From Embleya hyalina (lineage in GTDB: Bacteria > Actinomycetota > Actinomycetes > Streptomycetales > Streptomycetaceae): a stretch of DNA of 64,000 nt. Shown here piece after piece: positions 42,300-57,270 of this stretch. The stretch covers positions 62,001 to 126,000 of the forward strand of contig NZ_BIFH01000034.1 in assembly GCF_003967355.1 (NCBI RefSeq), written 5' to 3'. How positions within the stretch are numbered: position 1 is the first letter of the stretch; each line of letters starts with the position of its first letter. Under the pieces are notes generated by a model that was given only the letters and a program-made list of their open reading frames with translations, was not told the origin of the DNA and made no database searches. Made by a program: the position numbers and the translations under genes.

Positions 42300-45224
42300 A
42301 TGCCGGATGAATCGGGTGGCTTACTGGCGATCAGAGGCGACCATGCCGCCCTGCTGGGCGTGTTGTGGGGCAAATCGGCAGGCAAGGCGGGTGGGCGCGT
42401 CAATCTGTTGCTGTCGCACCTGCTGGACACGGCCGCCGTGGCGGAGTTGATCTGGGATCGATTCCTGGCTCCGTCGACCCGCCGCACGCTCGACGAGTTG
42501 GCGGGTGGGGAGACGAGGGGGAAGCGGCTGTTCTGTTGGTTGTGTGCCGTACACGATGTCGGCAAGGCGACGCCGCCTTTCCAGCAGATGGATCGCGCGG
42601 GTTCCTTGGCCGTGCGGGCAGTCGGCCTCGGGTGGCGGAAGGAAGCCGGGCCGAGGCAGTGGAGGCACGATCGGGCGGGTGGTCGCGTGCTGATCGATCG
42701 GTTGCGGGCCTCCGGTTGGCGGGATGAGCACGTCGACTGGGTATGGCCGCTCGTGGCCGGGCATCATGGGCTCTTCCCGTCCGCGGGGTCTCTGGCCCTG
42801 CGGGGGAGCAAGCGCACTCTCCTCAACGGCGACGCGCGGTGGGAGGTCGCTCAACGGGCCTTGCTGGAAGCGGTGACCGCCGCACTCGGGTACGGGTCCG
42901 TGGACGAGGTCGAGCCGGTGCGAGTGCCCTCTCGGGCAACGCAGTTGCAGGTCAGTGGGTTGATCGTCATGGCGGATTGGATCGCCAGCGACGAGAGGCA
43001 CTTCGTGGGCATCGACGACTTGGCGTCGTTGGGCATGAAGGTCTCGCGCGAGCGCGCCGCCAGGGCCTGGGAGGAGCTGGGGCTCAGGGGTGGCTGGGGT
43101 CGTCTGCCGCTTCCCGGCGAGGATGTGTTCCGGGAGCGATTCGACGAACAGCCGCGGCCGTCGCAGGCCATGGTGTTGCGGGCTGCGCATGCGATGGCCG
43201 AGCCGGGATTGTTGATCGTCGAGGCTCCGATGGGCGAGGGGAAGACGAAGGCCGCGTTCCTCGCGGCGGAGGTCCTGGCCGCTCGGTTCGGCGCGGACGG
43301 GGTGTTCATGGGGATGCCGACCCAGGCCACCTGTGATCCGATGTTCGATCGGATGCGCGACTGGTTGCGCGGCATCGATCCCAAACTCGTGTCCCAGGTC
43401 GCTCTCCTGCACGGCAAGAGTAGGTTCAATCCCGAGTGGAAGGAGCAGATCGACGCGGGCGCGGGATCCATGGGCGGGCGTTTCGCGAGTGTCGACGAGT
43501 TCGGCCTCGATTGTTGCGACGATCCCTACCTGGACGGTGGTGGCACGGTCGCCCAGGCGCTCGCCGGCTGGTTCCTCGGGCGCCATCGGGGCCTGCTGGC
43601 ACCCTTCGTCGTCGGCACGATCGACCAGTTGTTGTTCGCGGCGACGCGTACGAAGCACGTGATGCTCCGTATGGCCGGGCTCGCGGGCAAGGTCGTCGTT
43701 CTCGACGAAGTGCACGCCGCGGACGTGTACATGTCGCAGTTCCTGCAGGAGGCGCTCCGGTGGCTCGGTCAGGCCCGCGTCCCGGTCGTGATGTTGTCCG
43801 CGACCCTCGCGCCCGCGCAGCGGCACGCGTTGGTGGGCGCCTACCTGGCGGGGGCGGCGTCCCGCACCGAGTGCGACCTGTCCGGCTGGGTCGAACCGCA
43901 GGGGTATCCGTGCGCGACGTCGGCCTGGTGGGACGGGGAACGGGCCCGGTTCGGTGTCGACGCCGCGCCCGCGTGGCGCGAGGCGGCCCTGCGGGCGGAC
44001 GAGTCGCTTCCCGCGGTCCGACTCGAAGTGTTGCCGGAGACGGTGATCGGAAGCGACGACGCCCTCGAGGACGCGCAGCGCCGCGTGGACGAGGAGGTCG
44101 CGGACCTGCTGGTGGAGCGGCTCGCCGAGGGCGGCTGTGCCCTGGTCATCCGCAACACGGTCGCGCGAGCCCAGTCGTTGGCGAAGGTCCTGTACGAGCG
44201 GTTCGCAGAGGATGAGGTCGACCTGTTGCACGGCCGGTTGACCGTGCGGGCGCGAGCCGATCGGACCCGGGCCGCCCTGAACGCACTCGGAACATCCGGC
44301 GAAGGTGACGACCGCCCGGCCCGATGGGTGCTGGTGGCGACGCAGTTGGCCGAGCAGTCCTTCGATGTCGACGCGGATCTGCTGATCACGGATCTGGCCC
44401 CGGTCGACCTGTTGCTGCAGCGGATCGGAAGGTTGCATCGTCACACCGGTACGGCCCGCCCGTGCGGTCTGCGCGAACCCCGCGTCGTGGTGACCGGGTT
44501 CGCGCCCGCCGACGACGGACCACCGGACCTGCTCGGGGCGTCCGAGGGGATCTACGGGCGCTGGCCCCTGCTCCGGACCGCGGCGCTCGTCCTCGACGCC
44601 GCCGCGCACGACGGGTGGCGTGTACCCGCGCAGGTCCCCGAACTCGTCGGTCGTGTATACGGCGAAACTCACGACGTCGTCCCGGCGGCGTGGCGGTCTG
44701 CGGAGGACGAGGCCCGTCTGCTGTGGGAGGACACCAGACGCGAGCGCATCGAGGACGCCGAGCGGTACCTGTTGACCCGAACCGGCGAGCACGAGAACAC
44801 CACCCTCGAGGGGCTGCACTTCGCGGGCGCTTTGGACGGGGGCGAGCGTCGACTCCAGGCCGTCGTGCGCGACGGCCGACCCGGCGTCGAGGCCGTCCTG
44901 GTGGTTCGGGAACCGGGCGGCGGGTACCGTACGCCGGCCGGTCGCGCCCTGTCGGTGAACGGGGACGTCGCCGAGGCGCTGCTCGACGAGGTGCTGGGCG
45001 GGACGGTGCGGCTGTCCGCGGGCCAGAGCCTGGCCGCCCAAAAGGAGCTGGAGCCACTGCCCGGCTGGCGGGGCGACCCCTGGCTGCAGTACAGCCCGGC
45101 TCTCGTCGTGGACGCCGAGGGGTGGGCGGAAGTCGGCGGTTACACCCTGCGGTACGACCCCGTGCTCGGGCTCGTGCAGGAAAGCGCCCCGGACTTCGCA
45201 GGCCGGGCCGAGAGACGGAGGTAG
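42300..45224 (+). CDS. cas3: Cas3 helicase-nuclease, type I-E
   Basis: 974 residues from ATG 42300. The HD nuclease half shows HLLD (His 40), HDVGK (85-89) and GHHG (154-157). The helicase half shows Walker A APMGEGKT (309-316), DEVH (469-472), SAT (500-502) and the motif VI segment QRIGRLHRH. In type I-E it is recruited to Cascade-bound DNA, unwinds it and degrades one strand. All catalytic motifs appear intact. It is separated from cas8e by 220 bp that hold a hairpin terminator and a CRISPR-like mini-element. Confidence 0.97.
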   Translation: MPDESGGLLAIRGDHAALLGVLWGKSAGKAGGRVNLLLSHLLDTAAVAELIWDRFLAPSTRRTLDELAGGETRGKRLFCWLCAVHDVGKATPPFQQMDRAGSLAVRAVGLGWRKEAGPRQWRHDRAGGRVLIDRLRASGWRDEHVDWVWPLVAGHHGLFPSAGSLALRGSKRTLLNGDARWEVAQRALLEAVTAALGYGSVDEVEPVRVPSRATQLQVSGLIVMADWIASDERHFVGIDDLASLGMKVSRERAARAWEELGLRGGWGRLPLPGEDVFRERFDEQPRPSQAMVLRAAHAMAEPGLLIVEAPMGEGKTKAAFLAAEVLAARFGADGVFMGMPTQATCDPMFDRMRDWLRGIDPKLVSQVALLHGKSRFNPEWKEQIDAGAGSMGGRFASVDEFGLDCCDDPYLDGGGTVAQALAGWFLGRHRGLLAPFVVGTIDQLLFAATRTKHVMLRMAGLAGKVVVLDEVHAADVYMSQFLQEALRWLGQARVPVVMLSATLAPAQRHALVGAYLAGAASRTECDLSGWVEPQGYPCATSAWWDGERARFGVDAAPAWREAALRADESLPAVRLEVLPETVIGSDDALEDAQRRVDEEVADLLVERLAEGGCALVIRNTVARAQSLAKVLYERFAEDEVDLLHGRLTVRARADRTRAALNALGTSGEGDDRPARWVLVATQLAEQSFDVDADLLITDLAPVDLLLQRIGRLHRHTGTARPCGLREPRVVVTGFAPADDGPPDLLGASEGIYGRWPLLRTAALVLDAAAHDGWRVPAQVPELVGRVYGETHDVVPAAWRSAEDEARLLWEDTRRERIEDAERYLLTRTGEHENTTLEGLHFAGALDGGERRLQAVVRDGRPGVEAVLVVREPGGGYRTPAGRALSVNGDVAEALLDEVLGGTVRLSAGQSLAAQKELEPLPGWRGDPWLQYSPALVVDAEGWAEVGGYTLRYDPVLGLVQESAPDFAGRAERRR

Positions 45225-45226
45225 GC

Positions 45227-45262
45227 GCGGGCCGGGACCGTCCGACGACGACCCCGGCCCGC
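45227..45262 (+). terminator. Hairpin after cas3, overlapping a CRISPR-like repeat
   Basis: GCGGGCCGGG (45227-45236) pairs with CCCGGCCCGC (45253-45262). The right arm overlaps the first CRISPR-like repeat at 45256-45283, so the two RNA structures are mutually exclusive in a read-through transcript. Confidence 0.6.
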
Positions 45263-45347
45263 CCCCGCGAACGCGGGGCCCACCCGTCGACCCGACTCGG
45301 TGCGAGACACGGACACGGGTCATCCCCGCGATCGGCGCGGGGCCTAC
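45256..45347 (-). CRISPR. Two-repeat, one-spacer CRISPR-like element between cas3 and cas8e
   Basis: 45256-45283 ends CCCCCGCGAACGCGGGGCCC-AC and 45317-45347 reads GGGTCATCCCCGCG then CGCGGGGCCTAC. Both keep the palindrome and flanks of the I-E repeats of this locus with a few changes; the second has a 3-base longer loop. The segment between them is exactly 33 bases, the spacer length of the arrays here. Polarity matches the minus-strand arrays. It could make a crRNA-like RNA that directs Cascade to regulate cas genes, or be an array remnant. The repeat likeness and spacing are directly visible; the role is inference. Confidence 0.55.
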
Positions 45348-45444
45348 GGCGGATTCTCGCATTCCGCCCCGTCGCTCCGGCCGAATGTGCCAGGGTTTTT
45401 TTCCGAAACCTCTTTTAGACATGGACAGTTGGGGGCTATTCAGC
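45348..45444 (+). promoter_or_regulatory. Probable promoter and ribosome site of the Cascade operon
   Basis: This short stretch has T-rich tracts (GGGTTTTTTTCCG near 45395) unusual for the region and GGGGGCTATTCAGC before ATG 45445. The long gap from cas3 suggests separate transcription of cas8e to cas2. Confidence 0.5.
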
Positions 45445-47136
45445 ATGCCCGCATTCAGCCTGGTCGACGACCCGTGGCTGACCCTCGCCCCGAGGGGCGG
45501 AGGCCCTCCCGAACTCCACCCGGGACGCCACGCCCTGATCCACGCCGACGAGTTCGAGACACTCGTCGTCGACCTTCCCACCCAGGCACCGGCACTGCTC
45601 AGACAGTTCCTCCTGCCGATCGTCCGGGCCGCGCTCGGCCCACCCGGCGGCCGCGCCGGGTGGCTCGAGCGCTTTCGCGCCGGCGCGTTCGACAAAGACG
45701 AGAAGGAACGGCTGAACGCCTATCTGGACACCCATCGCGACCGGTTCGACCTCTTCCATCCGACGCACCCGTTCGCGCAGGTCGCGGGGCTGCGCACGGC
45801 CAAGGACGAGACCAAGGGCTCCGCGCTGCTCGTCGCGACCGCCGCCACCGGCAACAACGTGCCCCTGTTCGCGTCGCGGACGGAGGGCGACCCGCTGCCG
45901 CTCACCCCGGCCGAGGCCGCCCACTGGCTGCTGCACACCCACTGCTGGGACACCGCCGCGATCAAGACCGGCGCCGCCGACGACGACCAGGCGAAGGCGG
46001 GCAAGACGACGGGCAACCCGACCGGCCCCCTCGGACAACTCGGCGTCGTGGTTCCGACCGGCCGCACCCTGTACGAGACCCTCCTGCTGAACACCCCGTA
46101 TCGCACGGGCGCCATCCCCGGCGACAAACCGCAGTGGGAACAACCGCCGGCCGGACACACCTGGAAGACCCGCGCGGCACACGGCCTGTCGGACCTGTGG
46201 ACCTGGCAGTCCCGCAGGATCCGCCTCGTGCCCGAGGAGACGCACGACGGCACGGTCCGGGTCACCCGCGTGATCATCACCGCAGGTGATCGACTCAAGG
46301 AAACCCCCGACTTCGAACCGCACACCGCCTGGTCCATCCCCCCGACCGGCAGGAAGTCCCCCCAGACACCCATGCGTCGCCCGCGTCGCCACCAACCGGG
46401 GAAGGCGGCCTGGCGCGGCCTGGACGCCCTCCTGGAAGCGGACGTACGAACGTCCACCGGGCCGGGCAAGAGCTCCGCCGGCTTCGAGACCAGCGTCCTG
46501 GTGGACCAACTCCGCGACCTCGGCGACGCATTGCCCACCGACCACCCCGTTCAACTGGAGATGACCGGGATCTCGTACGGGACACAATCGGCCGTCGTCG
46601 ACGACGTCCTCTTCGACGCCATCCCCCTGCCCCTCACCGCACTCGCCGCCGACAGCCCCGCCCGCGACGCCCTCCTCGAAGCCGCCGAACAGGCCGAGGA
46701 ACTCGCCCGCGCGATCAACCACCTCTCGGCCGACCTGCGCCGGGCCGCGGGCGCCGACCCCATCCCCTGGGACAAGGGCCAACGACCCGGCGAACTGCTC
46801 CTGCACGCCCTGGACCCCCTGATGCGTCGCCTGCTCGCCGGCCTGCGCAGCGCCGCAGACGACGCCGACCTCGTCGAACGCGGCCTGCTCGCCTGGGAAC
46901 AACTCGCCCTGCGGCACGCGCACGACATCGCGGATCGGGTCGTCACCGCCGCCGCGCCGGGCGTGTTCGCGGGCCGCACCGTCGACGACAACGGCCGCGA
47001 ACGCACCTACCGCCTGGCCACCGCCGACGACAACTTCCGATTCCAGCTCCGACGGACCCTCACCCGGGCCACCGAGACCGCACGCCGCGACACCGCCGCG
47101 AACACACACGACGAGGACGAGGATGACGACACCTGA
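45445..47136 (+). CDS. cas8e: Cas8e (Cse1/CasA), Cascade large subunit
   Basis: 563 residues from ATG 45445: the N-terminus FSLVDDPWLTLAPRGGG is the Cse1 signature, and ATG 45421 lacks a ribosome site. Other Cse1 features are LFHPTHPFAQVAGLR and a helical C-terminal four-helix region. The subunit recognises the PAM and recruits Cas3. The next gene starts 14 bp before its stop, so the two are coupled. Length fits the family. Confidence 0.95.
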   Translation: MPAFSLVDDPWLTLAPRGGGPPELHPGRHALIHADEFETLVVDLPTQAPALLRQFLLPIVRAALGPPGGRAGWLERFRAGAFDKDEKERLNAYLDTHRDRFDLFHPTHPFAQVAGLRTAKDETKGSALLVATAATGNNVPLFASRTEGDPLPLTPAEAAHWLLHTHCWDTAAIKTGAADDDQAKAGKTTGNPTGPLGQLGVVVPTGRTLYETLLLNTPYRTGAIPGDKPQWEQPPAGHTWKTRAAHGLSDLWTWQSRRIRLVPEETHDGTVRVTRVIITAGDRLKETPDFEPHTAWSIPPTGRKSPQTPMRRPRRHQPGKAAWRGLDALLEADVRTSTGPGKSSAGFETSVLVDQLRDLGDALPTDHPVQLEMTGISYGTQSAVVDDVLFDAIPLPLTALAADSPARDALLEAAEQAEELARAINHLSADLRRAAGADPIPWDKGQRPGELLLHALDPLMRRLLAGLRSAADDADLVERGLLAWEQLALRHAHDIADRVVTAAAPGVFAGRTVDDNGRERTYRLATADDNFRFQLRRTLTRATETARRDTAANTHDEDEDDDT

Positions 47137-47722
47137 CATCGAACGACGCGAACGGTACTGGGACACCCGTATCGGCGTCGACGGCCGTTGGCGCGTCGAC
47201 CACGCCACCGGATACGTCGGGCCGCCGCCCGGGGCCGACCTCGCGGCGATGCGCACCGGACTGGGACGCACCCCGGGCGAGGCATGGGCCGTGTGGACGT
47301 TCAGCGTGTCCGAGGTCGACGAACACCTCGCCCGCCAGGACCGCATGTCCGCCGAACAACGAGCGGAACACGCCGCGCTGGCCCTGTACGGCCTCCACCA
47401 GCAGTCGCAGTCCACCCCGATGCACAAGTCCGGAGTACGCCCCGGACAGGCCCTGCGCGCCCTGCGGGCCACCGGGAAGTTCAGCGAACAGGCCGTCGAC
47501 CGACGCGTCGACGCCGCCGCCACCGCCACCCGGGCCGAGGCGCTGCACATCCACCTCCGCGGCCTGGTCACCCAACTCCGAGCCGTCGCCCAACCCCTCG
47601 ACTACAACACCCTGCTGGAAGACCTGCGCGAATTCGAACATCCGGACGGCCGCCGCCGGGTCCGCAGGCGCTGGGGCCGCGACTACTACGGCTGGAAACC
47701 GGACGCCGACCCCACACCGTGA
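47123..47722 (+). CDS. cas11: Cas11e (Cse2/CasB), Cascade small subunit
   Basis: 199 residues, helical and basic, with Cse2-type segments ALYGLHQQSQSTPMHKSG and DYNTLLEDLREFEHPDGRRRVRRRWGRDYY split by short loops. It forms the belly dimer that stabilises the crRNA and target strands. It overlaps cas8e by 14 bp and precedes cas7e in the standard I-E order. Confidence 0.95.
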   Translation: MTTPDIERRERYWDTRIGVDGRWRVDHATGYVGPPPGADLAAMRTGLGRTPGEAWAVWTFSVSEVDEHLARQDRMSAEQRAEHAALALYGLHQQSQSTPMHKSGVRPGQALRALRATGKFSEQAVDRRVDAAATATRAEALHIHLRGLVTQLRAVAQPLDYNTLLEDLREFEHPDGRRRVRRRWGRDYYGWKPDADPTP

Positions 47723-47814
47723 CGACCACGCCACCGGACGATTCCCTCGATCCCGCCCCGTACGTCCCACCCGTTCCAACCGCTCGAACCGTTCCACCGA
47801 ACCCCGGAGAGATC

Positions 47815-48945
47815 ATGACCGCCGCACCGCTGTACATCGACATCCACATCCTGCAGACCGTCCCACCCGCCAACCTCAACCGCGACGACCAGGGCAACCC
47901 CAAGGAGGCCTACTTCGGCGGCGTCCGCCGCGCCCGCGTCTCCTCCCAGGCATGGAAACGCGCCACCCGCATGCAATTCGCCTCCCACCAGCCCGAAGGC
48001 GAACAGGGCACCCGCACCAAGCGCATCGCCACCGAACTCGCCACCCGCCTCGCCCGCACCGGCGTCGACGGCGAACAGGCACAACGCCTCGCCACCGCCC
48101 TGCTCACCCCCCTGGGCGTCAAACCCGGCAAGAAGGCCGGCGACACCGCCTACCTGCTGTTCTACGGCCACCACCAAGTGGAGAACATCGTCGACCTCGT
48201 CGCCGACCGGGCCACCGACCTCGTCGCACTGGACGACACCGACCTCGTCGACGCAGTGAAGAACCTGCCCGTCGCCGACACACTCCGCACCGGACACCCC
48301 ATGGACGTCGCCCTGTTCGGCCGCATGGTCGCCGACATCCCCTCCCTCAACGTCGACGCCGCCACCCAGGTCGCCCACGCCCTGTCCACCCACGCCGTCG
48401 AACTCGAATTCGACTACTACACCGCCGTCGACGACCAAAACACCGCCGAGGAAACCGGCGCCGGAATGATCGGCACCGTCGGCTTCAACTCCGCCACCCT
48501 CTACCGCTACGCCACCATCGGCCTCCACCAACTCGAGGACAACCTCGGCGACACCGACGCCGCCATCGACGCCACACGACTGTTCGTCCAGGACTTCGCC
48601 CGCGCCGTACCCTCCGGCCACCAGAACACCTTCGCCCACCGCACCCTGCCCAACCTCGTCGCCGTCGCCATCCGCACCGACCAACCCGTCAACCTCGTCT
48701 CCGCGTTCGAGGAACCCGTCCCCGGCACCGACGGCATCGCCGCCGACTCCGCCATCCGCCTCGCCGACGAATACGCCCGCGTCACCCAGGCGTGGGGCGG
48801 CCCGGAACACATCGACGTGTGCCACACCTTCGACACCAAATCCCCCGCCGGCGCACGACTCGCGGAGGTCTTCGGCGACACGAAACCGTTCCCCACGCTG
48901 CTCACCGGCCTCACCGCCCGACTCCAGGCCAGGACGAACGCGTGA
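47815..48945 (+). CDS. cas7e: Cas7e (Cse4/CasC), Cascade backbone
   Basis: 376 residues from ATG 47815 with GGAGAG upstream; an earlier GTG would add an unrelated tail. Family segments: YIDIHILQTVPPANLNRDD, GGVRRARVSSQAWKRATR and a C-terminal DVCHTFDTKSPAGARL. Six copies normally wrap the crRNA. Stop and the cas5e start overlap by 4 bp (GTGA). Confidence 0.97.
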   Translation: MTAAPLYIDIHILQTVPPANLNRDDQGNPKEAYFGGVRRARVSSQAWKRATRMQFASHQPEGEQGTRTKRIATELATRLARTGVDGEQAQRLATALLTPLGVKPGKKAGDTAYLLFYGHHQVENIVDLVADRATDLVALDDTDLVDAVKNLPVADTLRTGHPMDVALFGRMVADIPSLNVDAATQVAHALSTHAVELEFDYYTAVDDQNTAEETGAGMIGTVGFNSATLYRYATIGLHQLEDNLGDTDAAIDATRLFVQDFARAVPSGHQNTFAHRTLPNLVAVAIRTDQPVNLVSAFEEPVPGTDGIAADSAIRLADEYARVTQAWGGPEHIDVCHTFDTKSPAGARLAEVFGDTKPFPTLLTGLTARLQARTNA

Positions 48946-49727
48946 CCACCGACCACCTCGTACTCCTGCTGCGCCTCGCCGGGCCGATGCAGTCCTGGGG
49001 CGACCGCAGCGCGTTCAACCGCCGCGAGACCCGCCCCGAACCCACCAAATCAGGCGTCGTCGGACTCCTCGCCGCCGCCGCCGGCCGCCGCCGCGAGGCC
49101 GACATCACCGACCTGGCCGAGCTGCGGCTCGGCGTACGCGTCGACCAGGCCGGATCACTGATGCGCGACTACCACACCGTCAGCGACTACCGCGGGCAAC
49201 CCTTGCCCCAAGCGGGCGTATCTGCCAAAGGCATCCAGAAGCCGACCTCACCCGCCAAACACACCCACATCACGCAACGCTTCTACCTCCAGGACGCCGT
49301 CTTCGTCGCCGGCATCGAAGGACCCGCCGACCTGATCACGACACTGGGCACCGCCGTCTCCAACCCGGCGTTCCCACTCGCACTCGGCCGCCGCTCGTGC
49401 GTACCCACACAACCCGTGAACCTCGGACTGCGCCCGACCGACCTCGAGACCGCACTGATCACCGAGCCCTGGCAGATCGGCGACCACGCCCGCCGACGCC
49501 AGGCCCGCAAGGGCCGCCCCGCCACCGTGCAACTGGCCGCGACCCTCGACGACCCCGACGGCGACGACGTCGCCCACGACCGCCCCGTCTCCTTCGACCC
49601 GCTGCGCCGCGCGTTCACGAGCCGCCGCATCCGCCACGCCTGGTTGACCGTTCCGTCCGGATTCGACAACCCGGATCCGGACGCGCGCTCCGCCGGCCAC
49701 GACCCCTTCGCACTCCTGGACTGGTGA
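48942..49727 (+). CDS. cas5e: Cas5e (CasD), crRNA 5'-handle subunit
   Basis: 261 residues from GTG 48942. RAMP fold with the N-terminal LVLLLRLAGPMQSWGDRSAF motif, PTKSGVVGLLAAAAGR and a beta-hairpin region with KHTHITQRFYLQDAVF. It caps the crRNA 5' handle. It overlaps cas7e by 4 bp and is followed at once by cas6e. Confidence 0.96.
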   Translation: MTTDHLVLLLRLAGPMQSWGDRSAFNRRETRPEPTKSGVVGLLAAAAGRRREADITDLAELRLGVRVDQAGSLMRDYHTVSDYRGQPLPQAGVSAKGIQKPTSPAKHTHITQRFYLQDAVFVAGIEGPADLITTLGTAVSNPAFPLALGRRSCVPTQPVNLGLRPTDLETALITEPWQIGDHARRRQARKGRPATVQLAATLDDPDGDDVAHDRPVSFDPLRRAFTSRRIRHAWLTVPSGFDNPDPDARSAGHDPFALLDW

Positions 49728-49732
49728 CCCTC

Positions 49733-50491
49733 ATGCCCTACCTGTCCCGCGTCCGGCTCAACCCGCTGCGCGGCGAGAGCCGGACGCTGCTGGCGAATCC
49801 GCGCGCGATGCGCGGTGCCGTGCTGGGCGGCGTCGCCGAACGACCCACCGAGGAACGCGTCCTGTGGCGACTGGACACGGACAACCCACGACGGCCGATG
49901 CTGTTCGTCCTCACCGAGTCCAAGCCCGACTGGACACACATCGTCGAACGCGCGGGCTGGCCCGACGCCGACGGCGAACACGCCGCCGTACGCGACTACA
50001 CACCGCTCCTCGCACGGATCGCGGTCGGCCGCGAGTTCGCCTTCCGACTCACCGCGAACCCCGTACAGAACACGAGCACACCGCAGGCGCCCTCGACCAT
50101 CCAGGGCAAACGCAAGTCCGCGGGCCACACGCGATCCTTCCGCATCGGACACCGCACCGCCGCCGACCAGACGGCCTGGTTCCTCAAGCGCTGCGAACGC
50201 TGGGGATTTACGGTCCCGGACGCACGCACGGACCCCGCGGCACCGGGGCTCGACGCCCCAGAAAGCGGCGAGGCCGCACGTGAAGTCCGGATCACCGCAC
50301 GGCAACGCCACTCGTTCGGCAAGAACGGCCGCGGCGAATCTCCGGTGGTCCTGACCACGGCCACGTTCGAGGGACGGCTGCGCGTGACCGACGCCGCCCT
50401 GTTCGCGGAAAGACTGGTCGGGGGCATCGGCCCGGGAAAGGCCTACGGCTGCGGCCTGATGACCCTCGCCGCGCTGCCGGAAGGATCCTGA
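49733..50491 (+). CDS. cas6e: Cas6e (CasE), pre-crRNA processing endonuclease
   Basis: 252 residues from ATG 49733 (MPYLSRVRLNPL); GTG 49724, overlapping the cas5e stop, is an alternative. The C-terminal glycine-rich loop GGIGPGKAYGCGLMTLA is diagnostic. It cleaves the repeat hairpin to give mature crRNAs, so it should process the arrays here if their repeats keep the stem. Confidence 0.96.
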   Translation: MPYLSRVRLNPLRGESRTLLANPRAMRGAVLGGVAERPTEERVLWRLDTDNPRRPMLFVLTESKPDWTHIVERAGWPDADGEHAAVRDYTPLLARIAVGREFAFRLTANPVQNTSTPQAPSTIQGKRKSAGHTRSFRIGHRTAADQTAWFLKRCERWGFTVPDARTDPAAPGLDAPESGEAAREVRITARQRHSFGKNGRGESPVVLTTATFEGRLRVTDAALFAERLVGGIGPGKAYGCGLMTLAALPEGS

Positions 50492-50493
50492 AC

Positions 50494-51516
50494 GTGCCCG
50501 ACATCTGGTGGAAGGCCCACCCGCACGACCTGCACCGCCTGGTCGATCGCGTCTCCAGCGTGTACGTCGAACGCAGCCACGTCGACCGCGACGACAACGC
50601 CGTCGTCGTCATCAACAAACGGGAGACCGTACGCGTCCCGGCCGCGATGATCGCCGTCATGCTGCTCGGACCCGGCACCCGCGTCACCCACCAGGCGATC
50701 GCGGTCCTCGCCGATTCCGGCACGGCGGTGTGCTGGGTCGGGGAACGAGGCGTCCGTCTGTACGCCACCGGCATCGGCCCCGCACGAGGCGCCGGACTGT
50801 TGCACCGGCAGGCATGGCTGGTGACCCGACCCAGGGAACGACTCGCCGTCGCCCGCGCGATGTACGGCATGCGCTTCCCCGGTGAGGACGTGTCGAAGGC
50901 CACGATGCAGGTGCTGCGCGGACGCGAAGGCAGACGAATGCGTGACGTGTACAAGGCCGAATCGGAACGTACCGGGGTGCCGTGGAAGCGCCGCGAATAC
51001 CGCGCGGGGGACGCCTTCGCGGCCGGAGACGACGTCAACCGGCTGTACTCGGCGGCGAATGCCGCGCTGTACGGCATCAGCCACGCCGTCATCGTGGGCC
51101 TGGGCGCGAGCCCGGGCCTGGGCTTCGTCCACACCGGGACGGCAACGTCGTTCGTCCAGGACGTCGCCGACCTCTACAAGGCCGAGTACTCGGTCCCCCT
51201 GGCGTTCGATCTCGCGGCCAAGGGCCTCGTCGACGAACGCGACGCACGCGTCGGCCTGCGGGAACTCATCGTCCGCGACAAACTCCTGGGGAGAATCGTC
51301 GACGACGTCAAAGCACTGCTGACGCCCCAGGGAGTCGAAATCCCGGACGTCGAGGCCAACGAACTCTGGGACGATCAGACCGGCACCGTCGCCGGCGGCG
51401 TCGACTACGGCGGGGACGACACGCCGGACCTCGTCCGAGAGGCCTCGATGGGAGAGGACCACATCACCATCCTGGGCCCCGACTTCGACGAACCCACCGA
51501 GGGCGGGAGACAGTGA
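50494..51516 (+). CDS. cas1: Cas1e, adaptation integrase
   Basis: 340 residues from GTG 50494, 2 bp after cas6e. Signature segments YVERSHVDRDDNAVVV, VGERGVRLYATG, SAANAALYGISHAVI and GFVHTGTATSFVQDVADLYK, with the catalytic Glu, His and Asp positions of Cas1 present. A C-terminal tail of about 40 acidic residues is longer than in E. coli. It integrates new spacers with Cas2 at the leader end. Confidence 0.97.
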   Translation: MPDIWWKAHPHDLHRLVDRVSSVYVERSHVDRDDNAVVVINKRETVRVPAAMIAVMLLGPGTRVTHQAIAVLADSGTAVCWVGERGVRLYATGIGPARGAGLLHRQAWLVTRPRERLAVARAMYGMRFPGEDVSKATMQVLRGREGRRMRDVYKAESERTGVPWKRREYRAGDAFAAGDDVNRLYSAANAALYGISHAVIVGLGASPGLGFVHTGTATSFVQDVADLYKAEYSVPLAFDLAAKGLVDERDARVGLRELIVRDKLLGRIVDDVKALLTPQGVEIPDVEANELWDDQTGTVAGGVDYGGDDTPDLVREASMGEDHITILGPDFDEPTEGGRQ

Positions 51517-51791
51517 CGGTCATCGTGCTCATCGCCGTCCCGGAAGGCCTGCGCGGCCACCTCACCCGCTGGATGGTCGAAGTCAACGCCGGCGTCTTCG
51601 TCGGCACCCCCAGTCGCCGCGTACGCGACCGCCTCTGGCAACTTCTGACCGAGCGCATCCGGGACGGACAGGCCGTAATGGCCGAACCGGCGAACAACGA
51701 ACAGGGCTGGGCCGTTCGCACGGCCGGCCGCGATCGCTGGCGACCGACGGACTTCGACGGACTGATCCTGTCGGCACGTCCCGGAAAGTGA
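51513..51791 (+). CDS. cas2: Cas2e, adaptation subunit
   Basis: 92 residues from GTG 51513, overlapping cas1 by 4 bp. Type I-E Cas2 fold: VTVIVLIAVPEGLRGHLTRW, VGTPSRRVRDRLWQLL and a C-terminal TAGRDRWRPTDFDGL. It bridges two Cas1 dimers. The array-1 leader follows directly. Confidence 0.96.
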   Translation: MTVIVLIAVPEGLRGHLTRWMVEVNAGVFVGTPSRRVRDRLWQLLTERIRDGQAVMAEPANNEQGWAVRTAGRDRWRPTDFDGLILSARPGK

Positions 51792-51870
51792 AGACATCAA
51801 TAGGTGTGGTGGCATGATGCAACTAAATGAAATTCGTGTTACCTGCCGGTAGAAGCCCAGTTCAGGCAGC
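51792..51870 (+). promoter_or_regulatory. Leader of CRISPR array 1
   Basis: AT-richer segment between cas2 and the first repeat. Its core (GGTGGCATGATGCAAC, then GTTAC and GGTAGAA) is the reverse complement of the leaders of arrays 3-6, which fixes array orientation. It should carry the array promoter and adaptation signals. Confidence 0.85.
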
Positions 51871-52317
51871 GTTGGCCCCGCGCTCGCGGGGATCGCTCCC
51901 CCCCACGCTGGTGGCCGCTCCTCGCTGCGGAGTTGGCCCCGCGCTCGCGGGGATCGCTCCCCCGTCATGTCCGGGAGCTCGACGCCCGCGGGGTTGGCCC
52001 CGCGCTCGCGGGGATCGCTCCGGCCGGAGTGCCCGGGCGAGTCGGCGTTCGCGGTTGGCCCCGCGCTCGCGGGGATCGCTCCTGCATGGGGATTGCGGTG
52101 AGTCCGCGCATCTCGTTGGCCCCGCGCTCGCGGGGATCGCTCGGTTATCGCCGGGGCGGGTGCCCTGGCCAAGCGGTTGGCCCCGCGCTCGCGGGGATCG
52201 CTCTCGCGCGAGCCCATGGGCCTGATGCCCAGATCTGTGGGCCCCGCGGAGATCGCTCGACGCAGAAGACCGGTGACACCTCCCGGAAGTGGTTGGCCCC
52301 ACCTGCGCGGGGCCGAC
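51871..52317 (+). CRISPR. CRISPR array 1 (type I-E), plus orientation, decayed distal end
   Basis: 28-base repeats (GTTGGCCCCGCGCTCGCG then GGGATCGCTC) begin at 51871, 51932, 51993, 52054, 52115 and 52176 with exact 33-base spacers. A seventh at 52237-52258 has lost six stem bases. The last, 52292-52317, is a chimera: its left half is this repeat and its right half is the opposite-orientation repeat. The leader is at the left, next to cas2. Confidence 0.95.
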
Positions 52318-52562
52318 AGACCATCATGCCTACGTGCTGGGAACGGCCTGGGAGCATCCCCGCTCGCGCGGGGCCGACGCCGAGGTTGGCGCGTTCGCGC
52401 AAGTGGGTGCGGGAACATCCCCGTGTTCGCGGGGCCGACGCGGCCTGTGCGCGGCCGTCTTCTCCGCCTCGGCCGAGCAATCCCGCGTTCCCGGGGCCGA
52501 CGGCGAGGTCGACGGCGTGCGCGGACACCGCCAGGAGCAATCCCCGCCTGCGCGGGGCCAGC
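52292..52562 (-). CRISPR. CRISPR array 2 remnant, minus orientation, leaderless
   Basis: After the chimeric repeat (52292-52317), reverse-orientation repeats lie at 52351-52378, 52412-52439, 52474-52501 (degenerate) and 52534-52562 (degenerate, one extra base). Spacers are 32-34 bases. No leader follows; instead a gene fragment abuts the last repeat. Confidence 0.9.
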
Positions 52563-52574
52563 TTGGCGCCGATG

Positions 52575-52737
52575 CGGGCGGCGTGCCGGTGCCAGGCCCG
52601 CCGAGCCGCCGGGCGGCGTGGTCGTAGCCCTGCAGGAACGCAGTCACGCCAGCGAGGGAGACGCGACCTATGTACATCCCGGGCCGCTTGGCAAAGAACG
52701 CAAGGTACTCGCGCTCGGTCATCTCGGTCGGATCCAT
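52575..52737 (-). pseudogene. 5' fragment of an RPGMYIG-family gene between arrays
   Basis: From ATG 52737 the peptide has MTEREYLAFFAKRPGMYIG then VSLAGVTAFLQGYDHAARRLG, a motif seen in small actinobacterial proteins of unknown role. Homology stops where array 2 begins, so the 3' end was lost when the array moved in or expanded. 52738-52840 is non-coding and probably held its promoter. Confidence 0.6.
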
Positions 52738-52840
52738 CACCCCGGAATCCTCTCGTGCTGTCACAAGGCGGCCGCACACCGGCACTCGATCGGCACACCC
52801 AACCTTGTATTCACAAGTTCCCGACAGCATCAGGTACGTA

Positions 52841-53295
52841 GAAGCATCCCCGCTTGTGCGGGGCCGATGTCCCGGAGCCAGCACGGTACGGAGCGGATCA
52901 GGGAACATCCCCGTCTGCGCGGGGCCGACCTCCTCCCACACAAGCGGCCCGTGGCCCATGTCGGAACATCCCCGCCTGCGCGGGGCCGACCCTGATACCA
53001 CATGCCGGCCCACGCCATACTCAGGAACATCCCCGCCTGCGCGGGGCCGACCGACCCCGGGGCCGGCCACGGCCCCGGGGTGGGGGAACATCCCCGCCTG
53101 CGCGGGGCCGACCGGCGAGGTCGCCGCGCGCGGTGCGGGGCGCCGGGAACATCCCCGCCTGCGCGGGGCCGACCGTGCGACCCGGCGTGCCCGGTGATCC
53201 CGGGAGGGAACATCCCCGCCTGCGCGGGGCCGACCTACTGAGGGAGGGTTCGTGCCGAACCTGGCTGGGAACATCCCCGCCTGCGCGGGGCCGAC
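52841..53295 (-). CRISPR. CRISPR array 3 (type I-E), minus orientation
   Basis: Eight 28-base repeats start at 52841 (degenerate, oldest), 52902, 52963, 53024, 53085, 53146, 53207 and 53268, each 61 bases apart. On the plus strand they read GGAACATCCCCGCC then TGCGCGGGGCCGAC. The leader is at the right. Confidence 0.96.
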
Positions 53296-53440
53296 ACCGG
53301 ATGACCTGGGGTTCTACCAGCGGGTAACAGCTTTTTCACTCGGTTGCATCATGCCACCCATGCCTCGTTTCCGCGAGGTGAATCTCCGCCGGCACCACGG
53401 TGGTTCACCCCACCACCACCCTCCACGCACGGAAGCAACG
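53296..53440 (-). promoter_or_regulatory. Leader of CRISPR array 3
   Basis: Conserved with the leaders at 53850, 57109 and 62449: GATGACCTGGG, TACCAGCGGGTAACAGC, CGGTTGCATC, then an outer GGTGAA and GGTTCACC inverted repeat. Confidence 0.85.
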
Positions 53441-54010: not shown

Positions 54011-54157
54011 ACCGAGGAGCCCGATCGTCCCCGCAGTCGTACCCAGTGAGGCCCCGGATGCGGGCCGATCCTCGGGTCACTCACAGCCAGGCGGTGTGTC
54101 CCTTCCCGGCATTAACCTGACGATCGTCCGGCGGAACCCGGGGGTCGAGGAGTGGCT

Positions 54158-55750
54158 GTGGTACTCAAGGATCTGACGGAACGGGGTGCGGTTCTCCGTG
54201 CGATCGACGAGTTCGACGAGGTCGGGCAGGCCGCGTTTCTGAAGCATTACGAATACGGTCGGTCGACCCGATACTTCGTCGAGTATCGGGGCGCTGTCTA
54301 CGACGTCAAGGCACTCGTCGGAGCAGCGTACGGGTATCAGTATCCGGACCGAGGGCCGTTGACGAGGAAACAGTTCAGCGGCGGGCAGGCGGCGGCGAAC
54401 GCGGCCGTGGAGCGCCTGGGTTTCACGGTGGTCGACCGACATGCCGCGGTCTCGACGACCGGGACGGAGTTCCTCGCCCGCGTGGAGGCGGTGGCTCCCC
54501 AACGATTCAGGGATCGAACGGCGCTGCATCGCCCGTTGATGCTGCTCTGGGCCCTGAAACAGGTCCGCGAGAACGCACCCCGCCGGCTACGGTGGATTGT
54601 CCTCCGCGAGGCTCTCACCGACTTGGGCGAGAGGTTCGGCAACGCCCGCGACCTGAACGCCCAGGCGCTGTACCCGCTCTGGGCGCTGCGCAACGACGGG
54701 TTGTGGGAGGTGGACGGCACCGAACACCTGGCGCCCTCGCAACGCCCGACGCTGGGGGACCTGAACCGGGACAACCCACTCACCGGATTCCCCGCCGCAG
54801 ACCACAAGTTGCTGAGGGACGAACCCCAAGTCCTCGAAGCCGCAATCGATCTCGTGCTCACAAAGTTCTTCGATCCAGCCCCGCCCAGACTGTCCGAATG
54901 GGTACGTCCCCACGCGCCAACCTCGGCTGTGGTTCCGCACGGGCGGCCCGGTGTCACCGAGGATGCCCGGAGCGAGGACCTGGAACTGCGCCTTGCGCTC
55001 GGCGACCCGAACGGCGACGGACCGATCCCCGAGACCGACCTCATCGAATACACCGCCCCCGACACCCGAACCGACCTGGCGCTCGAACATGCCCGCGCCG
55101 CGACCCGCACCGTCCGCGTCAGCCGCCCCGACGGAGCAGGAGGGCGGTACTTCGAGACTCGGGCACTGGCCGTCGGACGCTGCACGGGACCCTCACCCTC
55201 CAGCGGGGACACCTGGCTGCTCCAGCCCGTTCCCTCCGATGACCCGGAAACCTGGCCGCCCCCCGTACACGAACTCGTGACCTCGTCCCTCCAGGACACC
55301 ATCAACGAACACCTACAAGCCACCCCGAGCAATACGACGAACCCCTACGCACTCCTCAACGAAAGAGCCACCCAGGGCGCCGACGACCGAATCGGCAACA
55401 CCGTCGAGCGAGCGGTCGTCAAACGAGCGCGCAGCCGCAGTGCCCGTCAGGCCGTACTCGAACGCAGCGCCGGATCCTGCGAGAACCCACGCTGCCTCGG
55501 CCATCCCACCGAACTCACCGACGCCGGCCGACCCATCCTCGAAGTCGACCACATCCACGACCTCGCCCGCGGCGGCAGAGACATCCCCGAAGTGATGATC
55601 GCGCTCTGCCCCAACTGCCACGCCCTGAAAACCCGAGGCGTCAACCGCGACAACCTCACCAAGGAACTGCTCCACGTCGCTCGACAACGCCACGCCAACC
55701 ACCTGGCGAAGACACCCTCCCCTCAAGACACGTGGAACGAGCCGAAATGA
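54158..55750 (+). CDS. ScoMcrA-like type IV restriction enzyme (phosphorothioate-reader plus HNH)
   Basis: About 530 residues; GTG 54158 has GAGGAG 6 bp upstream, GTG 54152 is the alternative. An N-terminal head domain (YFVEYRGAVYDVKALVGAAYG, FSGGQAAANAAVERLGF) is followed by a sulfur-binding-type domain at about 115-180 (LHRPLMLLWALKQV, YPLWALRNDGLWEV), as in ScoMcrA of S. coelicolor. A variable middle follows. The C-terminus is a complete HNH nuclease: CENPRC (441-446), EVDHIHDLARGG and LCPNCHALKTRG. Relatives cut phosphorothioated or methylated DNA. No dnd genes are in the window. It lies between CRISPR arrays 4 and 5. Confidence 0.85.
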   Translation: MVLKDLTERGAVLRAIDEFDEVGQAAFLKHYEYGRSTRYFVEYRGAVYDVKALVGAAYGYQYPDRGPLTRKQFSGGQAAANAAVERLGFTVVDRHAAVSTTGTEFLARVEAVAPQRFRDRTALHRPLMLLWALKQVRENAPRRLRWIVLREALTDLGERFGNARDLNAQALYPLWALRNDGLWEVDGTEHLAPSQRPTLGDLNRDNPLTGFPAADHKLLRDEPQVLEAAIDLVLTKFFDPAPPRLSEWVRPHAPTSAVVPHGRPGVTEDARSEDLELRLALGDPNGDGPIPETDLIEYTAPDTRTDLALEHARAATRTVRVSRPDGAGGRYFETRALAVGRCTGPSPSSGDTWLLQPVPSDDPETWPPPVHELVTSSLQDTINEHLQATPSNTTNPYALLNERATQGADDRIGNTVERAVVKRARSRSARQAVLERSAGSCENPRCLGHPTELTDAGRPILEVDHIHDLARGGRDIPEVMIALCPNCHALKTRGVNRDNLTKELLHVARQRHANHLAKTPSPQDTWNEPK

Positions 55751-55920: not shown

Positions 55921-57108
55921 GGAGCATCCCCTCTTGCACGGGGCTGATCGCCAGGTCCAGCACGGCCGCGCCGTCACCCAGGGAGCAGTTCCCGCCTGCG
56001 CGGGGCCGACGCCGTCATGCCGCGCCCGACGCCTGCGAGTCCCGGAACATCCCCGCGCTCGCGGGGCCGACATGCGGGTCTGCGTCGTGCGCTGGTCTTT
56101 CAGGGGAGCATCCCCGCTCGCGCGGGGCCGACTGCAGCACACGGATCCGTGGACGGACGCGCAGGGGAGCATCCCCGCTCGCGCGGGGCCGACTGCGTGG
56201 ATGCGTGCATCACGCTGCGGTTCGCGGGAGCATCCCCGCTCGCGCGGGGCCGACACGACCTCCCCGCCGACTCGGGCGTCCTCGACAGGAGCATCCCCGC
56301 TCGCGCGGGGCCGACCGCGTCGTGGCTGACGCTGGGTCAGGGGCCGGCGGAGCATCCCCGCTCGCGCGGGGCCGACGGGCGACCCCATCGAAGCCACACA
56401 GCGGCACGGGGAGCATCCCCGCTCGCGCGGGGCCGACCGATGACCCGCACCGAGCAGCCCGACGACACCAGGAGCATCCCCGCTCGCGCGGGGCCGACGT
56501 CCACGGCGGGGGTGGCGTTGCGGGCGGCGGGGGAGCATCCCCGCTCGCGCGGGGCCGACGCCATGAGGGTGAGGGCCAACGAGGCGATGCCGGGAGCATC
56601 CCCGCTCGCGCGGGGCCGACCAAAGGCCCCCCGAGTACTACGACGTCATCGAAGGAGCATCCCCGCTCGCGCGGGGCCGACGTTCCGTGAACGCGGTGCC
56701 GGTCGTGTCCACGGGGAGCATCCCCGCTCGCGCGGGGCCGACGTCACCAGCTCGGTGTGGGCGCCGTTCGAGAAGGGAGCATCCCCGCTCGCGCGGGGCC
56801 GACTGGCCGCGCGCCTTCGCCCACGCGGTGAACGCAGGAGCATCCCCGCTCGCGCGGGGCCGACCCGAGCCGGGGCCGGTTGCGAAATAGCCGCCCGGGA
56901 GCATCCCCGCTCGCGCGGGGCCGACGCCGAGACGGTTGTCGACGACCAAGTGGGGCCAGGAGCATCCCCGCTCGCGCGGGGCCGACAGACCGGCCCTCTC
57001 GGCGAGACCTGGTACAGCCGGAGCATCCCCGCTCGCGCGGGGCCGACTCGTCGGCGGCCACCGCGGCCTCGACGTGCGCGGGAGCATCCCCGCTCGCGCG
57101 GGGCCGAC
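55921..57108 (-). CRISPR. CRISPR array 5 (type I-E), 20 repeats, minus orientation
   Basis: Repeats start at 55921 and 55982 (both degenerate), 56044, 56105, then every 61 bases to 57081. From 56105 on they are identical (plus strand GGAGCATCCCCGCTCGCG then CGGGGCCGAC), giving about 19 spacers. Sequence homogeneity toward the leader and decay at the far end show recent activity. It is the largest array in the window. Confidence 0.97.
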
Positions 57109-57270
57109 ACTGGATGACCTGGGATTCTACCAGTGGGTAACAGCATTTTCGCCCGGTTGCATTTTGCCACCACCGTGTCGTTTGCGGCGGGGTGAATCTC
57201 TGGCAACATCACGGTAGTTCACCCGACGACCCCCTCGGTGCCTCTCGAGTGGTAATCGATCCGGGCCAGC
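57109..57270 (-). promoter_or_regulatory. Leader of CRISPR array 5
   Basis: GATGACCTGGG, TACCAGTGGGTAACAGC and CGGTTGCAT are followed by the GGTGAAT / AGTTCACC inverted repeat, as in the other minus-strand leaders. Confidence 0.85.

Follow-up and report, generated by a model that had tools for sequence, protein, structure and literature searches.

A putative cas8e-repressing CreR mini-array in the type I-E CRISPR-Cas locus of Embleya hyalina

The type I-E CRISPR-Cas locus of Embleya hyalina carries, in the gap between cas3 and cas8e (positions 45255-45347 of the 64,000-nucleotide stretch analysed here, hereafter the window), a one-spacer mini CRISPR unit whose guide lies on the minus strand. 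Its sequence and those of its relatives suggest, with a probability that we put at roughly 0.9, that the unit is a mini-array of the Cas-regulating RNA (CreR) type and that Cascade loaded with its guide would repress the cas8e-cas2 operon, a feedback on Cascade's own production. Since the guide matches the region of the cas8e start in many relatives, the CRISPR system most likely turns down its own production.

Results

The cas locus and its solitary unit

The window encodes a complete I-E set (cas3, cas8e, cse2, cas7e, cas5e, cas6e, cas1e and cas2e), and its ordinary arrays start at about 51.87 kb. The features to which we refer are:

42300-45224, plus strand: cas3 (TIGR01587 and TIGR01596 above cut-off; start codon uncertain)
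45227-45262, no strand assigned: GC-rich hairpin 3' of cas3, overlapping the 3' repeat of the unit
45255-45283, minus strand: 3' repeat of the unit, 29 nt, with the I-E stem CCCCGCG/CGCGGGG
45284-45315, minus strand: spacer (guide) of the unit, 32 nt counted from the 8-nt handle
45305-45315, minus strand: seed of the guide, its first 11 nt, TGTCCGTGTCT
45316-45347, minus strand: 5' repeat of the unit, 32 nt, its stem-loop 3 nt longer than those of the arrays
45316-45323, minus strand: handle ATGACCCG, 8 nt, within the 5' repeat
45353-45361, minus strand: predicted extended -10 (TGCGAGAAT) in a promoter that would serve the unit itself; the 5' repeat follows after 5 nt
45388-45396, plus strand: predicted extended -10 (TGCCAGGGT) of cas8e, motif TGNYANNNT
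45396-45427, minus strand: stretch that the 32-nt guide would span by arithmetic, extending back to the predicted cas8e -10
45417-45427, minus strand: target site of the guide, TGTCCATGTCT, 10/10 outside position 6
45428-45430, minus strand: PAM AAC, adjoining the target site
45445-47136, plus strand: cas8e/cse1 (TIGR02547), first gene of the presumed repressed operon
47123-50491, plus strand: cse2, cas7e, cas5e and cas6e, the rest of Cascade (TIGR02548, TIGR01869, TIGR01868 and TIGR01907 above cut-off)
50494-51791, plus strand: cas1e and cas2e (TIGR03638 and TIGR01873 above cut-off)

Further in-frame ATGs of cas8e occur at 45385 and 45421, and its alignments to most close loci start at residues 1-4. 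Downstream of the operon, the array next to cas2 (51870-52221) has an orientation opposite to that of the arrays at 52299-53300 and 55970-57115 and a different repeat (GTTGGCCCCGCGCTCGCGGGGATCGCTC). The array ends at 53.8, 57.1 and 62.4 kb have about 200 bases in common, perhaps a leader, and a 532-codon ORF (54152-55750) between two arrays has a C-terminus that by eye resembles an HNH endonuclease.

The unit consists of two diverged type I-E repeats that bracket a 32-nt spacer; it thus has the plan of CreRs, in which two repeat-like sequences near cas genes enclose a single spacer. Among the 41 array repeats picked by pattern within the 64-kb window, the closest is identical to the 3' repeat at 23 of 29 positions and to the 5' repeat at 25 of 29, its three extra loop bases omitted, and the units of relatives end in a stem similar to that of the 3' repeat. 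An earlier sequence-only reading had already singled out this solitary repeat-spacer-repeat unit with its diverged repeats, and its assignment of the guide to the minus strand holds, with TGTCCGTGTCT as the start counted from the handle; its count of exactly 33 spacer bases becomes 32 from the handle, with unit bounds at 45255-45347. We rejected a canonical CRISPR array as a description, because the unit has a single spacer and diverged repeats instead of several near-identical ones. In an Rfam search of the unit, no CRISPR family scored up to E 10, and the two matches returned (a microRNA family and a Burkholderia RNA) are at chance level. Single-strand folding favours pairing of one repeat with the other, with an energy not better than that of shuffled sequences (z = -0.43).

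The hairpin 3' of cas3 had been read as a terminator whose arm overlaps the first repeat; the overlap stands, the terminator less so, as no terminator-like site passed our consensus scan. No sigma-70-like promoter passed it either. Two predicted promoter motifs recur among the 59 units that we identified in relatives (see below). On the minus strand, TGNNANANT is found between the target and the unit in 17 of 59 loci, where base shuffles would give 0.69; on the plus strand, TGNYANNNT precedes the target by no more than 62 nt in 28 of 59 loci, with 4.3 expected. According to passages of PMC4762764, the cas3 operon of Streptomyces avermitilis is separate from cse1-cas2, which fits a control of cas8e alone.

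A guide match at the predicted cas8e promoter

The window guide agrees with the cas8e promoter/leader (45417-45427) at 10 of 10 positions, 1-5 and 7-11, beside a PAM AAC. Unit and site are 70 bases apart, and the PAM is separated from the cas8e ATG by 14 nt. As in CreRs, the guide is partly complementary to a (here predicted) cas promoter next to a PAM. AAN followed by TGTCCNTGTCT has a single occurrence in the window and a single one in the 12.05-Mb genome (control 0); the pattern AANTGTCCNTGTCT, absent from 100 shuffles, is likewise unique in the window and genome-wide, its one occurrence being the 45417-45427 site. We compared the 41 window spacers found by pattern, one being the unit itself, with the region upstream of cas8e: the 40 ordinary spacers reach at most 7/10, the unit's spacer 10/10. 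A cas promoter had indeed been proposed as the target, but that of cas3, which we rejected: it agrees at 6 of 10 positions outside position 6 and has CTG, no AAN, in the PAM place.

Distribution of the unit in relatives

Relatives were collected by Cas8e similarity in five overlapping samples, from which only the best matches were taken as loci. Of 61 genomes close to the window, 22 had a match; of 391 genomes sampled from the order, 20 reached E <= 1e-100, and of 394 from the class, 41 reached E <= 1e-60. A scan of the collection gave 29 loci, and a different query against 394 genomes of the family gave 31 at E <= 1e-120. For plasmids, 10 records were taken of the 69 and 24 listed in two overlapping searches. 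Removal of 29 duplicates from 137 loci left 108 distinct ones, 98 of which have cas3 directly upstream of cas8e.

The comparison of the cas3-cas8e gap in relatives, suggested by the sequence-only reading as a check, speaks for conservation. Where cas3 lies upstream and the gap measures at least 148 nt (a limit chosen after inspection of the data), the unit is present in 58 of 68 loci, 51 at 10/10 and 7 at 9/10. With shorter gaps, none of 30 loci has a 10/10 pair and three have 9/10; among the loci without cas3 upstream, one of ten has the unit (L034). We take the 9/10 pairs of L015, L091 and L095, which have short gaps, and of L058, which has an array, as chance, because shuffled sequences also yield nines. 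All ten plasmid records examined carry the unit, two of them at 9/10 (L099 and L134). The ten wide-gap loci without a scored unit are L018, L025, L027, L028, L038, L063, L079, L088, L108 and L123.

Some individual loci deserve mention. L038 has the guide CTTTTGCGTCT and the target TTTTCGTCTT behind AAG, with one base of length difference, perhaps a pair in transition. L028 (Streptosporangium violaceochromogenes) shows by eye a decayed-looking unit in its gap, with a guide at 7/10 to a site before cas8e. L058 has an ordinary array in the place of the unit, 700 nt upstream of cas8e, possibly the ancestral state. In L135 (plasmid p1 of Streptomyces sp. WAC00288), the 1 kb before casA has a short hypothetical protein as its sole annotation where cas3 would be expected; similarity reveals a cas3-like stretch, so Cas3 may be broken, and guide and target still agree at 10/10. 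L096 is a distant locus with its site 267 nt upstream and may be weak.

Guide and target change together

Our first test of co-variation used 24 loci chosen by a handle-like string and a hairpin, with neither PAM nor target required. Twenty of them match their own cas8e upstream region at 10/10, two at 9/10, L038 at 8/10 and L019 at 7/10; L019 had been read on the wrong strand, and L062 repeats L041. Summed over the 24 loci, the match is 233; when guides were reassigned among loci 20,000 times, the sum averaged 161 and never exceeded 187. AAN occupies the PAM place in all 20 perfect matches although it had not been demanded. The wider search demanded AAN and a G-rich stem end and was run on the 108 loci in cas8e orientation; 52 of them have a 10/10 pair upstream of cas8e and 11 have a 9/10 pair, whereas 1,080 dinucleotide-preserving shuffles gave none at 10/10 and 15 at 9/10. 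The 59 units carry 47 distinct seeds, each fitting its own site, so that seed and target must have changed together many times, even though close relatives do not contribute independent seeds. This evolution of guides in step with their targets, together with the cas8e match in the window, backs the assignment to the CreR class that the sequence-only reading had proposed.

Agreement across the 59 units is 59, 54, 59, 59 and 59 at positions 1-5 and 59, 59, 58, 59 and 58 at positions 7-11, these ten positions being part of the selection. Outside the selection, agreement drops to 16 of 59 at position 6, to 12 of 59 at position 12 and to 12-28 of 59 at later ones; the up to 28 of 59 at some of these exceeds a quarter, and in short spacers the later positions run past the spacer end and compare repeat sequence. 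Position 6 and positions from 12 onward thus look free of pairing constraint in these alignments, the former as anticipated for a seed with a free sixth base, and the match, confined to positions 1-11, is too short for interference by the E. coli threshold of 18-25 bp, as in CreRs. The PAMs, whose first two letters were required, are AAC (32), AAT (13), AAG (12) and AAA (2). Across the whole stretch taken for each of the 59 loci, a site with AAN and 10/10 agreement occurs once in 52 and is absent in the seven with 9/10 pairs; the 13-kb loci among them cover cas3 and its upstream side. Measured to the extrapolated start of cas8e, the distance of the target is at most 40 nt in 33 of 59 units and larger in the other 26, up to 582 nt.

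Spacer lengths follow 6-nt steps

The spacers of the 59 units measure 14 (9 units), 15 (1), 20 (17), 21 (5), 26 (5), 32 (20), 33 (1) and 44 nt (1), i.e. 52 are of length 6n+2, 7 of length 6n+3 and none of any other. The lengths of L040, L048 and L045 (32, 32 and 44) were read by eye, since the program gave none for the first two and 17 for L045, misled by an internal hairpin; that of L065 was shifted by one base. In L045, the 44-nt spacer includes a hairpin of its own, CCCCAGTCTCACTGGGG. First noted in part of the loci, the steps held in those added later, many of them kin. A Cas8e tree of 58 rows (L055 was too short and left out) implies at least 11 changes of length class; this is a quick tree, with 18 of 55 inner branches weak and five long rows.

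The Cas7 filament also has a step of 6 nt. Shortened spacers are reported to give smaller Cascades in E. coli (work cited in passages of PMC10551041). We consider it somewhat better than an even guess that actinobacterial I-E regulatory guides change length by whole 6-nt steps and that the cells would build small or enlarged Cascades, with matching Cas7 numbers, dedicated to cas8e repression; short guides would then add a second layer of protection from self-cutting and would differ in how they compete for Cas subunits.

Discussion

Proposed mechanism and alternative explanations

The sequences show the anatomy of the unit, the match of guide and target, their co-variation in relatives and the PAM; beyond these, we infer transcription, processing, binding, repression and feedback in the following form. 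An RNA would start near the first repeat, from a promoter on the minus strand located between the unit and cas8e; within this repeat, as within the second, Cas6e would cleave to release a crRNA-like guide. Cascade loaded with this guide would bind the seed site, flanked by AAN, in the cas8e promoter/leader and block transcription of cas8e-cas2. Guide pairing would end at position 11, below the length for Cas3 recruitment, so that the cell would be spared self-cutting. Repression would lift when immune crRNAs or anti-CRISPR proteins consume Cascade.

An antisense RNA could in principle act at the same place: the guide, being complementary to the plus strand, would pair with the cas8e leader mRNA near the Shine-Dalgarno-like GGGGG and block translation without any Cascade on DNA, and the proximity of the site to the extrapolated cas8e start in 33 of 59 units agrees with this. 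We nevertheless regard it as improbable. Position 6 is mismatched in 43 of 59 units, pairing ends at position 11 regardless of spacer length and AAN appeared unasked in all 20 perfect matches, all marks of Cascade binding DNA; moreover, in the nine 14-nt units the site lies 102-147 nt upstream of the extrapolated start, which places it clear of the ribosome site.

Fainter still is the chance that the unit belongs to an addiction module of the CreTA kind, in which the guide would repress a toxin gene located in the gap. Such a module exists in the I-E system of Citrobacter rodentium, where a toxin is guarded by a crRNA-like element that lies between cas3 and casA on the opposite strand (passages of PMC12055562), the same gap and strand as in our unit. 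In three loci, the interval from target to cas8e also contains an ORF of 109-113 codons (L049, 5669-5998; L081, 1074-1403; L083, 1025-1366), and L076 and L085 have one by eye. However, our unit targets cas8e, with its site within 40 nt of the extrapolated start in more than half of the units (the same 33 of 59), and the 14 nt between PAM and ATG in the window leave no room for a toxin gene beneath the target. The ORF of about 110 codons shows by eye a hydrophobic stretch and a basic tail, and no Pfam family scored above cut-off in L049, L081 and L083. Where it lies between target and cas8e the guide would control it too, and its product is possibly a Cascade-repressed membrane protein or toxin. 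A decaying remnant of a former array before cas8e, now without function, is the least probable reading: the repeats are diverged, L058 has an ordinary array in that place and Corynebacterium diphtheriae has I-E variants with an array between cas3 and cse1 (passages of PMC12231136), but neither seeds and targets kept in step across 47 distinct seeds nor spacer lengths of 6n+2 or 6n+3 in 59 of 59 units would be expected of it. The unit may well descend from such an old array remnant.

Relation to known regulatory crRNAs

The reading that we prefer, a CreR mini-array repressing cas8e, has precedents. Liu et al. 2023 reportedly described CreRs as Cas-regulating RNAs of mini-CRISPRs, and Shmakov et al. 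2023 are said to have found regulatory mini-arrays in which two repeat-like sequences surround a spacer partly complementary to cas promoters, that of cas8 above all; these share the repeat-spacer-repeat plan and the partial cas-promoter match of our unit. Autorepression of cas genes by CreR is stated for types I-B, I-E and V-A in passages of PMC13131331, so the window unit belongs to a kind already reported in I-E. Together with the C. rodentium element (PMC12055562), this also means that the sequence-only reading, which knew of no I-E example with such a layout, does not hold in general on that point. Two further reviews describe CreR in general (passages of PMC12737573 and PMC12948488), and common to the descriptions in all three are a crRNA-like RNA, a partial cas-promoter match, an effector acting as repressor and no toxin. 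The unit and its relatives add features of their own: an actinobacterial I-E system, the cas3-cas8e gap and guide lengths in 6-nt steps.

Repression by Cascade through a partial seed is likewise shared with CreTA of Haloarcula hispanica (I-B) and C. rodentium (I-E), the type I-B CreA acting through an 11-bp seed (passages of PMC12055562 and PMC10989794). Truncated crRNAs repress without cutting in type I-B (passages of PMC10551041 and PMC10989794); those are engineered, whereas the 14-26-nt guides of our I-E relatives are natural and the window guide is of full length. Passages of PMC5904413 report that E. coli Cascade binds with AAG and five seed pairs while interference needs 18-25 bp, which agrees with the short seed and free sixth base of the units, and also that some E. 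coli crRNAs do need position 6. Among the literature matches listed, none concerned an actinobacterial I-E CreR family, seed co-variation or 6-nt steps in regulatory spacers, the contents of Liu et al. 2023 and Shmakov et al. 2023 being outside the scope of this comparison. The 6-nt steps in spacer length are the freshest part of the finding.

Implications

The 59 natural guide-target pairs show what Cascade needs for repression without cutting, and the pattern that evolution has kept for it is AAN and two blocks of five pairs separated by one free base, with little else. The length classes offer a direct test bed for natural variation of the Cas7 number in Cascade. Feedback control is suggested as a standing part of actinobacterial I-E loci that have a cas3-cas8e gap, including those on plasmids.
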